Origin: Blastococcus sp.
GTDB lineage: Bacteria > Actinomycetota > Actinomycetes > Mycobacteriales > Geodermatophilaceae
Reading direction: 5' to 3'
Assembly (NCBI GenBank): GCA_025465355.1
Contig: JAODNN010000133.1
Coordinates: 1 to 36,711 of the forward strand
Length of the DNA stretch: 36,711 nucleotides
Of the stretch, positions 26,459-33,243 are shown one piece after another. Numbering within the stretch: position 1 is the stretch's first letter; the number at the start of each line of letters is the position of its first letter. The translations under genes and the position numbers were made by a program. The notes below the pieces were generated by a model. That model was not told the origin of the DNA. It saw only the letters and a program-made list of their open reading frames with translations, and ran no database searches.

Positions 26459-27715
26459 ATGAAGGCTTCTGCCCCTGTGCCCAATCCCTACCTGCAGGTG
26501 CTGCGCACCCCGCACGCCCTGCCGATGGTGCTGGCGGCGTTCATCGGCAGGCTGCCGCTGTCGATGGTCGGGCTGGGCTCGGTCCTGCTCATCGCGTCGA
26601 CCACCGGCTCCTACGGCCTCGGCGGCGCGGTCGCCGCCGTCGGCGCCGTGACCACCGCCCTCGCCGGGCCCGTGATCGGCCGGTGGGCCGACAGCCACGG
26701 CCAGCGTCGCGTGCTGCTGCCCGTGCTGGCCGTTTTCGTGGCCTCCGGGCTGATCTTCCTGTTCGCCGTGCGGGAGCGCTGGCCGCTGTGGATCGTCTTC
26801 GTCACGGCGGGGCTGGGCGGTGCCTGCATCCCTCCGGTCTCGTCGATGATCCGGGTGCGCTGGACCCACCTGCTGCGCGGGAGTCCCCGGCTGCCGACAG
26901 CGCTGGCCATGGAGTCGGTGGTCGACGAGTTCGTCTTCATCGTCGGCCCGGTGCTGGTGACCTTCCTGTCCACGACCGGCCACGCCACCTCCGGCGTCGT
27001 CACGGCCTTCACTCTCGCCACGGTCGGCAGCCTGCTGTTCGCCGCCCAGCACCGCACCGAGCCGCCGCCCGGGGGGCACGAGAGCCGCAACGGCCCGTCG
27101 GCGATCCGCACCCCCGGCCTGCGGGTGCTGTTCGTGGTCGGCGCCGCCGTCGGCGCGATCCTCGGCACGTTGGAGATCGCCCTGGTCGCGTTCGCCGACG
27201 AGGTGGGCGCCCGGTCGCTGTCGGGGGTGCTCATCGCCGGGCTCGCGCTCGGCTCGATGGTCAGCGGGATCACCTGGGGCACCGTGCACTGGCGGCTGCC
27301 ACTGCGCCGCCGGCTCGCCGCGGTCCTGGTGCTGCTCACCGTGCTGAGCGTCCCGCTGCTGCTCATCCACCACATCTGGGTCCTGGTGCCGTTCGTCGTC
27401 CTTGCGGGGGTGGCCGTCTCGCCGTCCCTGATCAGCTCCTTCACTCTTGCCGAGCAGCTGGTGCCGCGGTCGGCCGTCACCGAGGCGTTCACCTGGATCG
27501 GCACCGCTCTCGGGCTCGGGGTGGCCATCGGGGCGTCCGTGGCGGGCAAGGTCGTCGACGTGGCGGGGGCGAACCGGGCTTTCCTGGTCGCGACCGTCTC
27601 AGCGGCGGTGGCGGCGGTGGTCGTCGCGTCGTTCCAGAAGTTGCTGCACGTCCCGGCCGAGCACGTCGCCGCCCCTGTTCGCACGTTGACGGAGCAGGGA
27701 AACAAAGCCTACTAA
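26459..27715 (+). CDS. MFS transporter
   Basis: 418-aa major facilitator superfamily protein with twelve predicted hydrophobic helices in two halves (about residues 20-195 and 220-395). The loop between helices 2 and 3 has GRWADSHGQRRVLL, the MFS motif A form. The second half carries similar but degenerate signals. No substrate-specific motif is recognised; such proteins are annotated as generic exporters in actinobacteria. The ATG at 26459 is used; a GTG six codons later (NPYLQVLRTPHALP) is an alternative start. It ends 47 bp before the leader peptide gene of the cysteine dioxygenase operon. Confidence 0.88.
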   Translation: MKASAPVPNPYLQVLRTPHALPMVLAAFIGRLPLSMVGLGSVLLIASTTGSYGLGGAVAAVGAVTTALAGPVIGRWADSHGQRRVLLPVLAVFVASGLIFLFAVRERWPLWIVFVTAGLGGACIPPVSSMIRVRWTHLLRGSPRLPTALAMESVVDEFVFIVGPVLVTFLSTTGHATSGVVTAFTLATVGSLLFAAQHRTEPPPGGHESRNGPSAIRTPGLRVLFVVGAAVGAILGTLEIALVAFADEVGARSLSGVLIAGLALGSMVSGITWGTVHWRLPLRRRLAAVLVLLTVLSVPLLLIHHIWVLVPFVVLAGVAVSPSLISSFTLAEQLVPRSAVTEAFTWIGTALGLGVAIGASVAGKVVDVAGANRAFLVATVSAAVAAVVVASFQKLLHVPAEHVAAPVRTLTEQGNKAY

Positions 27716-27726
27716 GGCGATCATAT

Positions 27727-27756
27727 TTGACGAGATTGCTTGCGGCTGGTTGAGTT
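27727..27756 (+). promoter_or_regulatory. possible promoter of the leader-cysteine dioxygenase operon
   Basis: TTGACG (27727-27732, five of six to TTGACA) lies in a locally AT-rich stretch. With 17-18 bp spacing a weak -10 (TTGAGT/TGAGTT, 27750-27756) would start transcription at or just before the leader peptide ATG at 27763, giving a leaderless leader peptide. Confidence 0.35.
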
Positions 27757-27762
27757 CCCGCC

Positions 27763-27843
27763 ATGCCCGGTCCGATCCCACTCGTCCGCAGGTCCGCGGT
27801 CGACCTCCTGCGGGTCGCCAGCGCGCTGTGTCCGGGGCACTGA
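27763..27843 (+). CDS. cysteine-containing leader peptide (attenuator type)
   Basis: 26-codon open frame ending 68 bp before the cysteine dioxygenase start. The peptide begins MPGPIPLVRRS and has the core VDLLRVASALC, followed by PGH and the stop. From memory, this R-x-x-VDLxRVxSALC pattern is that of short leader peptides placed before sulfur-metabolism and transport genes in many actinobacteria; the late Cys codon (TGT) is their constant feature. A short hairpin GCGGC-GCCGT-GCCGC (27869-27883) lies between the leader stop and the next gene. Ribosome pausing at the Cys codon under cysteine shortage would be expected to alter expression of the operon; direction and mechanism are inferred. Confidence 0.75.
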   Translation: MPGPIPLVRRSAVDLLRVASALCPGH

Positions 27844-27911
27844 TCCACCAGCTGCCCCTGATCCCGCCGCGGCGCCGTGCCGCGCATCCCGCGTAAGGAC
27901 CCTGCTCCCGC

Positions 27912-28484
27912 ATGTCCGCACCGACTCGCCTTCCTACGCCCCTGTCCACCTCGACGCCGGCCGTCGTCCGGCGGCACACCGCCGCCTCCGGCAGCGCCGG
28001 TCTCGCCATCACCCTCGCCCTCCAGGCCGACTTCTGGGGTCCCCTGGTCGACTACCGCGAGGACACCCGCTGGACCAGGCTGCTCTCCCCCCGGGGCGTC
28101 GCGGCGGCCGTCGACCCGTCCCTGCACCCCGAACTCGCCCGCGCGGAGATCTGGCTGCTGTCCTGGCTGCCCGGCCAGGGCACGGCCCTGCACGACCACG
28201 GGCTGTCGTCCGGCGCCTTCGCGGTGGCGCAGGGCGCGGTCGCCGAACGGGTGGTCACCACCGGCCGCCGAGGGCGGCGGGCGCGCGAGCTCAGCGCAGA
28301 TCTCGTGACCGGACGGGTGCGCATGTTCGGGCCGCATTACGTTCATCAGGTGCGCAACAACGGCGTCGTCCCCGCGGTCAGCGTGCACGTGTACGCCCCG
28401 AGACTGTCGGTGATGAACACCTACCGTCTCCAGAACTCGCGCCTGGAGCGGATCGGCACCGAGCAGGCCGGGGTGGACTGGTGA
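27912..28484 (+). CDS. cysteine dioxygenase family protein (cupin)
   Basis: 190-aa cupin of the type I cysteine dioxygenase family, which oxidises cysteine to cysteine sulfinate using Fe(II) and O2. The three iron-ligand histidines are visible: H94 and H96 (GQGTALHDHGLSSGAF) and H145 (FGPHYVHQVRNNG). VHVYAPRLSVMNTY is the conserved segment after the cupin, with a candidate catalytic Tyr. The first 25 residues are Thr/Ser/Pro-rich and probably disordered. It is the first enzyme gene after the leader peptide. The rhodanese gene start overlaps its stop as GTGA. Activity on cysteine versus another thiol is inferred from family and neighbours. Confidence 0.9.
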   Translation: MSAPTRLPTPLSTSTPAVVRRHTAASGSAGLAITLALQADFWGPLVDYREDTRWTRLLSPRGVAAAVDPSLHPELARAEIWLLSWLPGQGTALHDHGLSSGAFAVAQGAVAERVVTTGRRGRRARELSADLVTGRVRMFGPHYVHQVRNNGVVPAVSVHVYAPRLSVMNTYRLQNSRLERIGTEQAGVDW

Positions 28485-28906
28485 CGGCGGCCGCCCGCCT
28501 GCAGCGGCTGCGCTCGATCGACGACGTGCTCGCCGAGGCGCGGGGGCGGATCGTCCGGTACTCCCCCGAGGAGGCGGCCGCCCGGGTGGCCGCCGGCGCG
28601 CTCCTCGTCGACACCCGGCCGGCGGCGCAGCGCGCCGAGCACGGCTCGGTTCCCGGCGCGCTGGTGATCGAGCGCAACGTGCTCGAGTGGCGGCTGGACC
28701 CGCAGAGCGACGCCCGCCTGCCGGAGGCCACCGGTCATGACGTCGAGGTCATCGTCCTTTGCAACGAGGGCTACAGCTCCAGCCTTGCGGCGGATGCGCT
28801 GCGGGAACTGGGTCTGGTGCACAGCGCCGATGTCATCGGGGGCTTCCAGGCCTGGGCGGCCGCGGGCCTCCCCACCACCCGGGAGCCTGACATCCTCGAC
28901 CGGTGA
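28481..28906 (+). CDS. rhodanese-like sulfurtransferase
   Basis: 141-aa single-domain rhodanese. It spans about residues 26-135: LLVDTRPAAQRAEHGSVPGA is the CH2A-like segment, and the catalytic C94 sits in VIVLCNEGYSSSLAA, with an active loop of six residues (CNEGYS) as in thiosulfate- or persulfide-handling rhodaneses. GGFQAWAAAGLP near the end is the CH2B-like signature. It would transfer or detoxify sulfane sulfur. The GTG at 28481 overlaps the cysteine dioxygenase stop by 4 bp, and the protein's own stop overlaps the next start the same way, so three proteins are translated in series. The context suggests clearance of sulfur from cysteine breakdown. Confidence 0.93.
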   Translation: MTAAARLQRLRSIDDVLAEARGRIVRYSPEEAAARVAAGALLVDTRPAAQRAEHGSVPGALVIERNVLEWRLDPQSDARLPEATGHDVEVIVLCNEGYSSSLAADALRELGLVHSADVIGGFQAWAAAGLPTTREPDILDR

Positions 28907-29574
28907 GCCGCCCCCGCCCCGCCGCCGGAGGCGGTCGCCGGCTGGGGATCGCGCCCGAACGGCTCGGCCGCTGGCTGGACGGCGTCGCGGAGCGGCACGG
29001 CGTCTTCAGCGAGGTCGATGCCGATGGGGACGCCGTGCGGATCACCTGCGCCGACACGACGACGGTCACGCTGCGGGCGCCCTTCGCCTGGACGCCGGGG
29101 CCTGCGCTGCTGAGCAGCTTCACCGCCGCCGCCCGCGAGCCACGCCGCGCCGCGGTCCTGCTGGTCCGGCGGGGCCGCTGGGCGGTCGGGGTCTTCGACG
29201 GTGCCGACCTCGTCGTCTCCAAGGTCGACGCCCGGCTGGTCCAGGGGCGGACGGCCGCCGGCGGGTGGTCGCAGCAGCGCTTCGCCCGCCGGCGCGGCAA
29301 CCAGACCGACGCCGTGGTGGAGCACGCCGTCGACACCGCCGTCCGGGTGCTGCACCCGCACGCAGGCTCGGTGGACGCGCTCTTCACCGGGGGGGACCGC
29401 GGGCTCGTGGACGACGTCCTGGCCGACCCCCGCCTGCGTCCGCTGGCCGCACTGCGGCGGGAGCCGGCGCTGGAGGTGGGCGACCCGACGAAGGCGGTGC
29501 TGCTCGAGACGCCCAAGAAGTTCCGCGCCGTGGACGTCCTGATCCGCGAGCCCGCCGACCTCCCGCCGTCCTGA
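28903..29574 (+). CDS. acVLRF1 family peptidyl-tRNA hydrolase
   Basis: 223-aa protein of the actinobacterial Vms1-like release factor 1 (acVLRF1) family, related to eukaryotic Vms1/ANKZF1, which cut the peptide from tRNA on stalled 50S/60S subunits. The eRF1-like domain runs from about residue 60 (RAPFAWTP) to 185. The catalytic loop is GRTAAGGWSQQRFARRRGNQ (residues 115-134), with Q124 or Q125 as the likely GGQ-like glutamine. SVDALFTGGDRGLVDDVL is the following conserved segment. The GTG overlaps the rhodanese stop as GTGA, so it is translated with cysteine dioxygenase and rhodanese. Its place in a cysteine-responsive operon is unexpected for a ribosome quality-control factor. Confidence 0.9.
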   Translation: MSRPRPAAGGGRRLGIAPERLGRWLDGVAERHGVFSEVDADGDAVRITCADTTTVTLRAPFAWTPGPALLSSFTAAAREPRRAAVLLVRRGRWAVGVFDGADLVVSKVDARLVQGRTAAGGWSQQRFARRRGNQTDAVVEHAVDTAVRVLHPHAGSVDALFTGGDRGLVDDVLADPRLRPLAALRREPALEVGDPTKAVLLETPKKFRAVDVLIREPADLPPS

Positions 29575-29585
29575 ACCGGCGGGGG

Positions 29586-29591
29586 TAACCT
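29586..29591 (+). promoter_or_regulatory. possible leaderless -10 box for helD
   Basis: TAACCT (TANNNT) ends 9 nt before the helD GTG and lies in the 26-bp gap after acVLRF1. If active, helD has its own start in addition to read-through from the operon. No -35 is evident. Confidence 0.35.
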
Positions 29592-29600
29592 CCTCCGACT

Positions 29601-31667
29601 GTGCCCTCGACCGTGAGCGAGCCGACCACCGCCCCCGATCCCGTTCTCACCGCCGAGCGTGCCCACCTGGCGCACGCGGCCGACTGTCTCACCGAGATGC
29701 GCGTCGCGGCCCAGTCCGTCGTCGACGCCGGCGTCGACGCCTGGGCCTCCGAGCGCCTCGGTGCCGCCCGGGCGGAGCGGTTGCGCGCCCTGGCCGCCGA
29801 TCCGCAGGTGCCCGCCTTCTTCGGCCGCACCGATGCCCGGCACACCGACGGAGGCGAGACCTTCCACATCGGCCGCCGGCATGTCCGCGACGCCGCGGGT
29901 GACCCCGTCGTCATCGACTGGCGGGCGCCGATGAGCCGGCCGTTCTACCAGGCCAGCGCGGCCGAACCCCAGGGCCTGGTCCGCCGGCGCCGGTTCGGCT
30001 TCGCCGGGGGCGAGCTCACCAGCTACGAGGACGAGTTCCTTGCGGACGGCGACATCGGTGACGGCGCGGGCGCGCTGCTCCGGGCCGAGATCGAGCGCCC
30101 GCGCAGCGGACCCATGCGCGACATCGTCGCCACCATCCAGCCCGACCAGGACGACATCGTCCGCGCCCCGCTGGCCGAGTCGATCTGCGTGCAGGGCGCC
30201 CCAGGGACCGGGAAGACCGCGGTCGGGCTGCACCGCGCCGCCTACTTGCTCTACACGCATCCCGGCCAGCTGGCCCGCACCGGCGTTCTCGTCGTGGGCC
30301 CGAACCGGGCGTTCCTCCGCTACATCGAGCAGGTGCTGCCCACCCTCGGCGAGGTGGACGTCGAGCAGACCACGGTGGCCGACCTGACCGCGCGGGTCCC
30401 GGTCCGTGCCGTCGACCCGGCCCACGTCGCCGTCCTCAAGGGCGATGCGCGGATGGCCGAGGTGCTCCGCCGGGCGCTCTGGGGGGAGATCGTCAAGCCG
30501 GTCGACTCCGTGCAGGTGCCCCTGGCGGGTCGCCTGTACCGCGTGCCGGTCGAGCGGCTCAAGCGCTACGTCGACGACCTGCGCCGCCGGGCCCGTGCCG
30601 ACGACGACCAGCAGCTGCTGCACTACGCGGCCGCCCGGGAGCGGCTGGCGATGCTGCTCGCCGAGGACGCCCGCCGGCAGAAGGAGGAGAACGGCGGCGC
30701 GCCGACCGATGGCGAGACCCGGCGGGCGGCCCGCAGCGCGGAGGTCGCCGCGTTCTGCGAGGCGGTGTGGCCCGCCCGGGACGCCGCCGGCCTGGTCTTC
30801 GCCCTCTGGACCGACGCGGGCCTGCTGGCCCGTTCGGCCCGCGGGCTCCTGGACGACACCGAGCAGGCACTGCTGTCCTGGTCGCACGCGCCGCGATCGA
30901 TGCGCACCGCCCCGTGGACGTCGGCGGATGCCGTGCTGGTCGACGAGGCGGCCGGCCTGCTCGAGCGCACCGCGGGTTACGGCCACGTGGTGCTCGACGA
31001 GGCCCAGGACCTCTCGCCGATGGAGTGCCGCGCGGTCGCCCGCCGGCTGGGGGCCGGGTCGCTGACCGTGCTCGGCGATCTCGCTCAGGCCACCAGCCCG
31101 TGGGCGTCCTCGGACTGGCGGCAGACGCTCACCGGGCTGGGCCGCCCGGGCACCGTGGTCCGCCCGCTGACCCGCGGCTACCGGGTGCCGGGGGAGGTGC
31201 TCGACTACGCCAACCGGCTGCTGCCGCTGATCGCGCCCGAGCTGCCCGCCGCCACCGCGGTCCGGTCGGAGCCCGGCTCGCTGCGAGTCCGTTCAGCCGC
31301 CAGCCTGGCCGCGCCGCTGGTCGAGGTGGTCGCCGAGCTGGCCGCCGTGCCGGGTTCGACCGCTGTGGTCTGTGCCGACGCCTCGGTCCCCGACGTCGTG
31401 GAGGTGCTGACCCGGGCGGGACTCGACGCGGTGGCACTGTCCGACGAGGCGGAGGCGCCCATGCTGGCCGTCGTCCCGGCGAGCCTGGCGAAGGGGCTGG
31501 AGTTCGACGCGGTCGTCGTCGTCGACCCGGCCGCGATCGTCGCCGCCGAGACGCGCGGGCTGCACCGGCTCTACGTCGTCCTCACCCGTGCCGTGAGCAC
31601 GCTCGTCGTCCTGCACCGCGGTGACCTTCCGGGACCGCTGGCCGACGAGCCGCGCGCGAGCGCGTGA
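29601..31667 (+). CDS. helD: HelD/HelR-like RNA polymerase recycling ATPase
   Basis: 688-aa UvrD/Rep-like SF1 ATPase of the actinobacterial (class II) HelD group, which removes RNA polymerase from stalled or terminal complexes and in some species gives rifamycin tolerance. The N-terminus (residues 1-190) is the HelD-specific part, with a helical arm (TAERAHLAHAADCLTEMRVA) and FFGRTDARHTDGGETFHIGR then VVIDWRAPMSRPFY. Walker A is GAPGTGKT (199-206), Walker B is VVLDEAQDLS (near 465), followed by LTVLGDLAQATSPW, RGYRVP, AKGLEFDAVVVV and YVVLTRAV. DNA-repair UvrD is excluded by the N-terminal domain. It starts 26 bp after acVLRF1 and is convergent with the FAD enzyme; a 6-bp stem (31665-31683) joins the two stop codons. 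Confidence 0.9.
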   Translation: MPSTVSEPTTAPDPVLTAERAHLAHAADCLTEMRVAAQSVVDAGVDAWASERLGAARAERLRALAADPQVPAFFGRTDARHTDGGETFHIGRRHVRDAAGDPVVIDWRAPMSRPFYQASAAEPQGLVRRRRFGFAGGELTSYEDEFLADGDIGDGAGALLRAEIERPRSGPMRDIVATIQPDQDDIVRAPLAESICVQGAPGTGKTAVGLHRAAYLLYTHPGQLARTGVLVVGPNRAFLRYIEQVLPTLGEVDVEQTTVADLTARVPVRAVDPAHVAVLKGDARMAEVLRRALWGEIVKPVDSVQVPLAGRLYRVPVERLKRYVDDLRRRARADDDQQLLHYAAARERLAMLLAEDARRQKEENGGAPTDGETRRAARSAEVAAFCEAVWPARDAAGLVFALWTDAGLLARSARGLLDDTEQALLSWSHAPRSMRTAPWTSADAVLVDEAAGLLERTAGYGHVVLDEAQDLSPMECRAVARRLGAGSLTVLGDLAQATSPWASSDWRQTLTGLGRPGTVVRPLTRGYRVPGEVLDYANRLLPLIAPELPAATAVRSEPGSLRVRSAASLAAPLVEVVAELAAVPGSTAVVCADASVPDVVEVLTRAGLDAVALSDEAEAPMLAVVPASLAKGLEFDAVVVVDPAAIVAAETRGLHRLYVVLTRAVSTLVVLHRGDLPGPLADEPRASA

Positions 31668-31680
31668 CCGGCAGGAGCGG

Positions 31681-33243
31681 TCAGCGCTGGTCGAGGAGGT
31701 GGCGGGCGGCGGCGTAGCCGCCGAGCCCGCTGACGGCGCCGCCGCGCACGGTCCCGCCCGAGGACGCCGACACGATCCGGGGATGCTCGGTGGCGACGCC
31801 CCAGGTGCCGACCTGCTCGTCGGTCGCGGCCACCGGCCAGGTCAGATCGCCGTGGAAGATGTGCCCGCCAGGCATGGCCAGCGCCGCCTCCACGTCCAGC
31901 GGTGACGACGCGTCCAGGCATGGCTCGCCCGAGGCGTCGCGGGCCAGGCAGTCCAGCAGCGGCTCCTCGAGGTGCGCGTCGAGCTGGGCGACCACCCGAC
32001 GGACCGCCTCCCGCCGGGTGCCCACCGGATCAGCACGGAAGAGCTCGGCCGGCGTGTGCAGGCCGAACAGGGTGAGCGTGTGCCGCCCGGTCGCCTGCTC
32101 GACCGGACCCAGCACCGACGGGTCGGTCAGGGAGTGGCAGTAGACCTCGAACGGGATCACGTCCGGCAGCCGGCCGGCGGCGGCCTGCGCGTAGGCGGCA
32201 TCGAGCTGCCCGGCGGCCTCGTCGACGTGGAACGTGCCGGCGAACGCGAGCGCCGGGTCGGCTCCCGAGCGGAGCCGGGGGAGCCGGGCCAGCACCATGT
32301 TGATCTTCAGCTGCGATCCGGACGGGTGAGGGCGCGGATCGGCGCCGGTCAGCTCGGCGAGCACGGTGGGCGCGGCGCCGAAGACCACGGTGCCGGCCTC
32401 GACCGCCGCCGTCCGGCCGTCGTCGTCGGTCCAGGAGACGGTGACCCCGTTCGCCCGCGGGTCCAGGGCGGTGACCGTGGCCCGGGTGAGCAACTCGGCG
32501 CCGGCCCGGCGGCCGGCGGTCGCCATGGCTCCGCTGACCGCGCCCATCCCGCCGACCGGCACCCGCCAGCGGCCGGTGCCGTTGCCGACGAGGTGGTACA
32601 GGAAGCAGCGGCCGGCCAAGCCGTCGTCCGCATGCACGTCGGCGAACGTGCCGATCAGTCCGTCGGTGAGGGCCACCCCACGGACGACGTCGTCGGCGAG
32701 GTGGTCGGAGACGACGTCGGCCAGGGGGCGCTCGCGCACGTCATGCCACAGCTGGGGGTCGCGCAGCCGGCCGGCCAGCTCGGTGGGGGACAGGAGGGGC
32801 TCGGTGAGCGTGGGGGCGAGGTCCTCGGCCAGGGTGGCGAGCCGGCCGTAGAAGCGCTGCCAGCCGGCGAACTCGGCGTCGGAGCCGGTGAGCTGCCGGA
32901 AGGAGGTGGCGGTGGCCGGCCCCTCGTCGCGCTCGACCAGCAGCCCGGTCGACGAGCCGTCCCGCGTGGTGGGCGTGTACGAGGCGACCGCACGATCGGC
33001 CAGCCGCACCGCCAGGCCGAGGTCGTCGACGATCCGGTCCGGCAGGAGGCTGACCAGGTACGAGTACGCCGACAGCCGGACGTCGACGCCCTCGAAGACC
33101 TGCCGGCTGATCGCAGCCCCGCCGACCTGCGCCAGTCGCTCCAGGACGAGGACCGTGCGGCCGGCGCCCGCCAGGTAAGCCGAAGCGACCAGACCGTTGT
33201 GCCCGCCCCCGACGACGACGACGTCGTACCTGTTCCGTGTCAC
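31681..33243 (-). CDS. FAD-dependent oxidoreductase, phytoene-desaturase/PYROXD2-like
   Basis: 520-aa flavoprotein. The N-terminal FAD motif is VVVVGGGHNGLVASAYLAGA (residues 9-28), followed by VLVLERLAQVGGAAISRQVF, as in phytoene desaturase-like amine/carotenoid oxidoreductases and human PYROXD2. The middle GGMGAVSGAMATAGRRAGAE and the C-terminal GTVRGGAVSGLGGYAAARHL close the FAD site. No carotenoid cluster is near, so a carotenoid role is not supported and the substrate is unknown. The GTG at 33243 stands 6 nt after a TACCGT box, suggesting a leaderless mRNA. Confidence 0.88.
   Translation of the reverse strand: MTRNRYDVVVVGGGHNGLVASAYLAGAGRTVLVLERLAQVGGAAISRQVFEGVDVRLSAYSYLVSLLPDRIVDDLGLAVRLADRAVASYTPTTRDGSSTGLLVERDEGPATATSFRQLTGSDAEFAGWQRFYGRLATLAEDLAPTLTEPLLSPTELAGRLRDPQLWHDVRERPLADVVSDHLADDVVRGVALTDGLIGTFADVHADDGLAGRCFLYHLVGNGTGRWRVPVGGMGAVSGAMATAGRRAGAELLTRATVTALDPRANGVTVSWTDDDGRTAAVEAGTVVFGAAPTVLAELTGADPRPHPSGSQLKINMVLARLPRLRSGADPALAFAGTFHVDEAAGQLDAAYAQAAAGRLPDVIPFEVYCHSLTDPSVLGPVEQATGRHTLTLFGLHTPAELFRADPVGTRREAVRRVVAQLDAHLEEPLLDCLARDASGEPCLDASSPLDVEAALAMPGGHIFHGDLTWPVAATDEQVGTWGVATEHPRIVSASSGGTVRGGAVSGLGGYAAARHLLDQR

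Follow-up and report, generated by a model that had tools for sequence, protein, structure and literature searches.

A leader peptide with an invariant UGU cysteine codon ahead of a cysteine dioxygenase-rhodanese pair in Blastococcus: a candidate single-codon cysteine attenuator

The stretch of DNA analysed here, hereafter the window, comprises 36,711 nucleotides from the draft genome of a Blastococcus sp. (4.9 Mb in 195 contigs, of which this is contig 79; GenBank assembly GCA_025465355.1, contig JAODNN010000133.1), and this work deals with a short leader open reading frame (ORF) in it and with the genes following on the same, forward strand. The leader spans 27763-27843, including its TGA stop codon at 27841-27843, and has 26 codons from the ATG at 27763 (coding part 27763-27840); its peptide of 26 amino acids, read directly from the sequence, is MPGPIPLVRRSAVDLLRVASALCPGH. 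Beginning 68 bp beyond the leader stop lies the gene of a cysteine dioxygenase-like thiol dioxygenase (CDO; 27912-28484, with 54.9 bits against CDO_I PF05995, cut-off 23), followed by those of a rhodanese-domain protein with a CNEGYSS loop (28481-28906; PF00581, 49.4 bits, cut-off 22.2) and of the peptidyl-tRNA hydrolase acVLRF1 (28903-29574; NF041024, 251.1 bits, cut-off 125), each of these two joined to the preceding gene by a GTGA overlap. The string ends with the gene of a divergent HelD-like ATPase of the RNA polymerase recycling type (29601-31667), separated from the acVLRF1 stop by 26 bp. Direct reading thus bears out the gene content, the 26-codon leader, the GTGA overlaps and the 26-bp gap described in the original prediction, which had been made from the letters of this DNA. 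The overlapping frames and the short gap make co-transcription of the string likely in this genome, acVLRF1 probably being transcribed together with CDO and rhodanese, and a generic scan of 27600-31900 found neither an intrinsic terminator nor a sigma-70 consensus promoter.

Judging by its profile score, the leader is a member of an already annotated family and hence not new. It reaches 29.8 bits against NCBIfam NF042934 (“putative leader peptide”, cis_reg_atten; cut-off 27), and 28.2 bits in a six-frame search of the genome with the same model, while staying under the cut-off of 45 for both NF042933 (the Ms5788A family Cys-rich leader, 18.9 bits) and NF042936 (15.9 bits). NF042934 is present in 57 of 79 genomes of the class Actinomycetes and in none of 14 control genomes, and in a draw of 119 genomes from the phylum it was found in six only, all from this class; many of its loci are also matched by the Ms5788A model (NF042933). 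Rfam holds no family for the leader region, its sole listed match between 26000 and 32000 being sub-threshold and lying at 31457-31529. For comparison at close range, a set of 45 loci of close acVLRF1 relatives was used (assigned to Blastococcus, Modestobacter, Geodermatophilus, Klenkia or Geodermatophilaceae, with one unverified Bacillus sp.). The leader recurs in all 10 of these relatives that bear CDO, with synonymous changes in its core, so that it is more than a chance reading frame, and the lack of conservation that had been named as fatal to the original prediction did not occur.

The window leader has one Cys codon and no run of such codons. This presumed sensor codon, at the terminal Cys of the core, is the TGT at 27829-27831, and it is TGT in 10 of 10 relatives as well as in all 73 of the leaders from the class on which codons and peptides were counted, where it occupies position 19 of the model. 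These 73 leaders, 71 of the 134 NF042934 matches in the class plus two matches of the host genome below the cut-off, amount to 70 distinct 51-nt cores from 23 families. The background is very different, as 215 of the 2334 Cys codons (9.2%) in the long ORFs of the fetched loci are TGT, and so are the other Cys codons of the leaders themselves: TGT makes up 8 of the 73 remaining ones within the same cores (Fisher p ~1e-32 against the terminal Cys) and 7 of the 32 that come after the core (p ~3e-18), neither p value being corrected for relatedness; with a single leader taken from each family, the count would be 23 of 23 all the same. Since the leaders were found by means of a protein profile, the choice of UGU was not selected by the search. 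The same codon is present in 12 extra loci (nine of them new), at the same place in 29 of 29 parsed NF042933 loci (23 repeats and six new) and in all 19 class leaders linked to a CDO; with these nine and six later additions, 48 of the 134 NF042934 matches stayed unread. The contrary case is a weak candidate of the host genome (contig 95, L193; 13.5 bits), ahead of a symporter-like ORF by eye, in which TGC stands directly before the stop and which could be either an exception to the rule or a false match. UGU is followed by C in 77% of cases and by T in 17%, and the rest of the core shows variable third positions with no fixed one among them, which makes an effect of decoding likelier, in our view, than an RNA motif. 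A downstream motif complementary to UGUC was considered as the cause of the codon and rejected, AGGACA occurring 5 times against 0.8 expected, which is too few; the most strongly enriched words beyond the leader are Shine-Dalgarno-like (CAGGAG, GAAGGA).

The peptide around this codon is conserved too. Counting back from the terminal Cys, D at -9 and R at -13 are found in 70 of 70 cores, L at -16 and R at -6 in 69, and L at -8 in 67, resulting in the fixed spaced motif L..R..(V/I)DL.R, with codons that vary synonymously at the conserved residues (e.g., GAC in 52 and GAT in 18 for the D). With UGU in the A site of the ribosome, residues spaced in this way would come to lie in the upper exit tunnel, and for this reason we prefer a pause assisted by the nascent peptide over a plain attenuator, where nothing but the supply for the Cys codon would matter and the sequence of the peptide would be irrelevant. 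The plain attenuator does have a precedent in the mycobacterial leaders with runs of Cys codons (PMC1262725 and, reportedly, Canestrari 2020), but the single Cys codon of the window leader, the D and R that stay invariant under synonymous change (a conservation in part ascertained) and the fixation of UGU at a single Cys codon where several occur all argue against it, and we regard it as unlikely.

As to what these leaders might control, those of the host genome that score above the NF042934 cut-off lie before a DUF4395-sulfurtransferase (contig 102) and before the CDO of the window, and two that score below it precede a TauE-type protein (contig 181, 23.7 bits) and a sulfite reductase-PAPS reductase pair (contig 109, 21.1 bits), all of these products being judged by eye. 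Class-wide, 70 downstream genes were picked by a composition rule, a few of them (e.g., at L246, L284 and L294) probably wrongly, and the domains they contain are DUF4395 (17), sulfite reductase (12), rhodanese (12), PAPS reductase (4), CDO (3), luciferase-like (3), ThiS (2) and singles such as APS kinase, TauD and TauE. Most of these targets are genes of sulfur assimilation or sulfur transfer, wanted when cysteine is short, so that the leader probably induces its downstream genes as Cys-tRNA runs low. Seen from the side of the dioxygenase, 66 class-wide CDO loci (out of 121 matches in the class, mostly the best-scoring ones) have a leader upstream in 19 cases, compared to 2 in the opposite-strand control, a rhodanese motif downstream in 34, and both in 5. 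Thirteen of those 19 leaders stem from one genus (g23), in which no rhodanese motif is present within the 1.5 kb read. From these counts, CDO-rhodanese is a common pair and leader-CDO a recurring one, all three together being less common.

The dioxygenase itself gives E 6e-11 against PDB 8qfr and keeps its metal and triad motifs, the HDH, a later His and SxHxY being conserved in the alignment at what we take to be the metal and triad residues (HxH, H, SxHxY) of cysteine dioxygenases. At the motif position of Arg60 of the rat enzyme, presumably the residue that binds the carboxylate of cysteine, the alignment is uncertain and reads Arg in the window and in L149, His in L106, Gly in L107, Ser in L131 and L139, and Thr in L133.

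From the family, the conserved core, the UGU rule and the sulfur targets, all of which can be read off the sequence, we infer that the NF042934-type leader acts here as a single-codon cysteine attenuator, assisted by its nascent peptide, for a CDO-rhodanese pair belonging to a cysteine-shortage regulon, an interpretation that we hold to be probable, if with considerable reserve. The ribosome would make a peptide with L..R..(V/I)DL.R in the upper exit tunnel and would then meet the single UGU. When Cys-tRNA is scarce it would wait there, altering the folding ahead of the CDO ribosome-binding site and/or hindering Rho, and CDO and rhodanese would be made; when Cys-tRNA is ample it would move on to the stop codon, and expression would stay low. 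The pair would in this way share a regulon with sulfite reductase, PAPS reductase and sulfurtransferases, probably freeing sulfur from thiols, and in this lineage acVLRF1 and the HelD-like gene would ride as passengers on the same transcript.

A possible promoter precedes the leader, with a -35 box TTGACG at 27727-27732, a 17-nt spacer and a weak -10 box TTGAGT at 27750-27755; as this -10 box lies 7 nt ahead of the leader ATG, the leader mRNA would be leaderless. A TTGAC box is found at the equivalent place in 5 of the 10 relatives. Across the family, TANNNT stands 5-8 nt before an in-frame ATG or GTG in 40 of 70 leaders compared to 14 of 4065 control starts (a control counted per start codon, where one leader may offer several starts), and by this pattern many members have starts of the leaderless type. 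At the other end, RNAfold predicts a hairpin at 27830-27862, its 5′ arm running from the Cys codon across the leader stop, and by eye most of 11 CDO leaders can fold a comparable hairpin from the Cys codon with the letters of the stem changed (GGGGCA/UGCCCC, GGGUC/GACCC, GGGCUG/CAGCCC, GGCCUG/CAGGCC). The CDO gene has a probable Shine-Dalgarno sequence, AAGGA, at 27895-27899, 12 nt before its ATG. In the 53 of 70 class leaders with an identifiable start plus Shine-Dalgarno sequence, blocking a ribosome footprint at UGU raises the predicted accessibility of the latter from 0.36 to 0.46 (19 up, 3 down), compared to 0.37 for an upstream control block (5 up, 4 down), and this rise favors induction while the ribosome waits. 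Directly 5′ of the -35 box of the CDO leaders, relatives share a partly conserved stretch (ACTAAG-CCGAT / CACCAA-CGGT; window 27700-27732), possibly a transcription factor site.

Several observations weigh against the shortage-sensing attenuator nonetheless. Conservation of the peptide is partly ascertained, since a protein profile was used to find the leaders. The -10 box of the window, TTGAGT, is a poor one that falls outside TANNNT, and an obvious leaderless -10 box is absent in 30 of the 70 leaders. The hairpins of the 11 CDO leaders are about one standard deviation more stable than shuffled sequences (mean z -1.04), because of which we give them little weight, and the stability of the RNA exceeds that of shuffles only modestly (mean z between -0.3 and -1.4, depending on the stretch). 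A block at the leader stop codon yields a Shine-Dalgarno accessibility of 0.43, nearly the 0.46 obtained at UGU, so that the fold model gives the Cys codon no special place; the 11 CDO leaders shift little (0.54 to 0.59, with 0.56 for the stop block and 0.53 for the control), and the window leader does not shift at all (0.43 to 0.43). Finally, the induction of a cysteine-destroying enzyme at low cysteine is a paradox, unless its substrate is another thiol. The simplest way out of it would be that the CDO-rhodanese pair, as it looks to us, serves the scavenging of sulfur more than the disposal of cysteine; the breakdown of cysteine, which had been proposed as its role, fits badly with the mostly assimilatory targets of the leader family.

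A rival reading reverses the signal. TnaC senses tryptophan, and the leader could, in a similar manner, be an arrest peptide sensing an excess of cysteine, whose nascent chain would stall at or after the Cys when free cysteine is high and would turn CDO on for disposal. Its conserved and spaced residues upstream of the Cys, kept amid synonymous variation, are in the style of arrest peptides, the enzyme downstream at this locus is nominally catabolic, and in the fold model a ribosome at the stop exposes the Shine-Dalgarno sequence about as well as one at UGU. Against this stands the position of the leader family ahead of assimilatory genes, whose expression would be expected to be off at high cysteine, and we consider such a sensor improbable.

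The genes beyond the pair have a different distribution. In tblastn searches with the window proteins, CDO and rhodanese were found together in 10 of the 45 related loci, rhodanese alone in 14 and neither in 21, and the leader core, present wherever CDO is, was found in none of the 35 loci that lack it (after setting aside four loose pattern matches, at window 32018 and in L124, L125 and, on the minus strand, L142; one of the CDO loci, L131, has a right flank of less than 3 kb). In 10 of the 45, acVLRF1 and HelD are no more than 300 bp apart, and two (L107 and L149) have all four genes together. Across the class, 105 of 197 genomes have a match to PF18859, weaker relatives included; at 73 of 74 strong matches in genomes other than the host's (E up to 1.2e-34; one in G005 left out, weaker PF18859 matches excluded, and some contigs short), no CDO, rhodanese motif, HelD, major facilitator superfamily (MFS) gene, PEPCK or leader adjoins acVLRF1. 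Joint conservation of these neighbours, the lack of which had been named as refuting the original prediction, was not found at these loci. Its central idea, a single system in which a leader sensing stalling or Cys-tRNA would drive acVLRF1 and HelD as factors that clear stalled machinery, has in its favor the likely co-transcription of the string here and its full retention in 2 of 45 relatives, but the leader tracks CDO and is missing from 35 of 35 relatives without it, in many relatives the interval from MFS to acVLRF1 is filled by other genes or nearly empty, and 73 of 73 class acVLRF1 loci are without any of the partners, so that we reject it as very improbable. What stands of the proposed sensing is a link to cysteine supply ahead of CDO-rhodanese, backed by the family, its sulfur targets and its conservation; the coupling to ribosome and polymerase rescue does not, and acVLRF1 and the HelD-like gene appear from these comparisons to be local neighbours and no part of a conserved system.

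The slot between MFS and acVLRF1 (window 27713-28903; L105-L149) is hypervariable in Geodermatophilaceae, its contents, typed by eye, being CDO-rhodanese, rhodanese alone, an alpha/beta hydrolase-like ORF of about 418 amino acids, a beta-helix-like ORF or almost nothing. Four Klenkia loci (L139, L141, L142 and L146) have some 940-1000 bp between rhodanese and acVLRF1, and in L139 this gap holds what by eye is an EAL-domain-like ORF. The last gene of the string matches PDB 6yxu (E 8e-74) and scores strongly against the HelD/HelR models NF041258 (335.7 bits) and NF041465 (312.2 bits), far under their cut-offs (1100 and 1051, respectively), for which reason we name it HelD-like and not as a catalogued orthologue; with such scores it may represent a separate branch. 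A defence function was considered for the string and rejected, the PADLOC matches of the HelD-like protein being weak helicase ones (best E 1.6e-8) and the other three proteins having none.

A wider proposal, which we advance tentatively and as falling somewhat short of probable, is that this class-wide leader family senses cysteine through one obligatory, wobble-read UGU, with a conserved nascent peptide keeping the ribosome waiting there, the single codon replacing the codon runs of classical attenuators and steering a sulfur regulon that includes the CDO-rhodanese scavenging pair. If this holds, much of the class Actinomycetes would sense sulfur by how fast one wobble-read codon is translated, a rate tuned by the nascent chain, and the sensitivity would depend on which codon is used rather than on how many there are. 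A leader family with one rare Cys codon suggests a finely tuned ribosome sensor, and CDO-rhodanese operons would gain a new candidate role. That acVLRF1 and HelD lie close to the leader is a local feature, on which no rescue circuit should be made to rest. The points that deserve attention are instead the UGU codon of the family and the presence of CDO-rhodanese inside an apparent cysteine-shortage regulon.

In the full-text literature, we found no cysteine leader before a CDO, no invariant UGU in such leaders and nothing under the spelling acVLRF1, the first two as judged by titles and abstract openings in a search with most subscription papers outside its scope, so that absence is not shown. 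Polycysteine leaderless ORFs acting as attenuators in mycobacteria were reportedly described by Canestrari and colleagues in 2020. NF042933 (Ms5788A) represents what we take to be these polycysteine leaderless attenuators; its members share loci with NF042934 and have UGU at the same place, and the window leader differs from them in scoring under their cut-off and having one Cys only. A 2026 paper (PMC13236596) cites Canestrari 2020 for the control of M. smegmatis cysteine genes by translation attenuation. Cysteine leader ORFs had been predicted before cys operons in mycobacteria and some other bacteria (Seliverstov et al. 2005, PMC1262725), and as far as the accessible part of that paper goes, these resemble the window leader in being short ORFs with one or more Cys codons near the stop and no obvious terminator, and differ from it in their runs of Cys codons and their biosynthetic operons, with no CDO in the section on cysteine. 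The eight leader peptides named in the portion of the S. lividans reannotation consulted (PMC8079986) include none for cysteine. The acVLRF1 family is described as acVLRF-1 in PMC6514570, where a search of the text available finds no mention of cysteine, rhodanese or HelD. The acVLRF1 and HelD/HelR families comprise the same proteins as those in the window, linked to each other or to the leader only in part of the Geodermatophilaceae loci.

Arrest peptides of the TnaC type presumably resemble the window leader in their single sensor residue and in the spaced conserved residues of their tunnel region; the set of targets of the NF042934 leaders, unlike theirs, points to the sensing of shortage and not of excess. 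Also among the closest known systems is the NF042934 family itself, with which the window leader shares both the core and the position before a sulfur gene; the visible part of its record describes a putative leader only and includes neither the UGU rule nor the CDO-rhodanese target.

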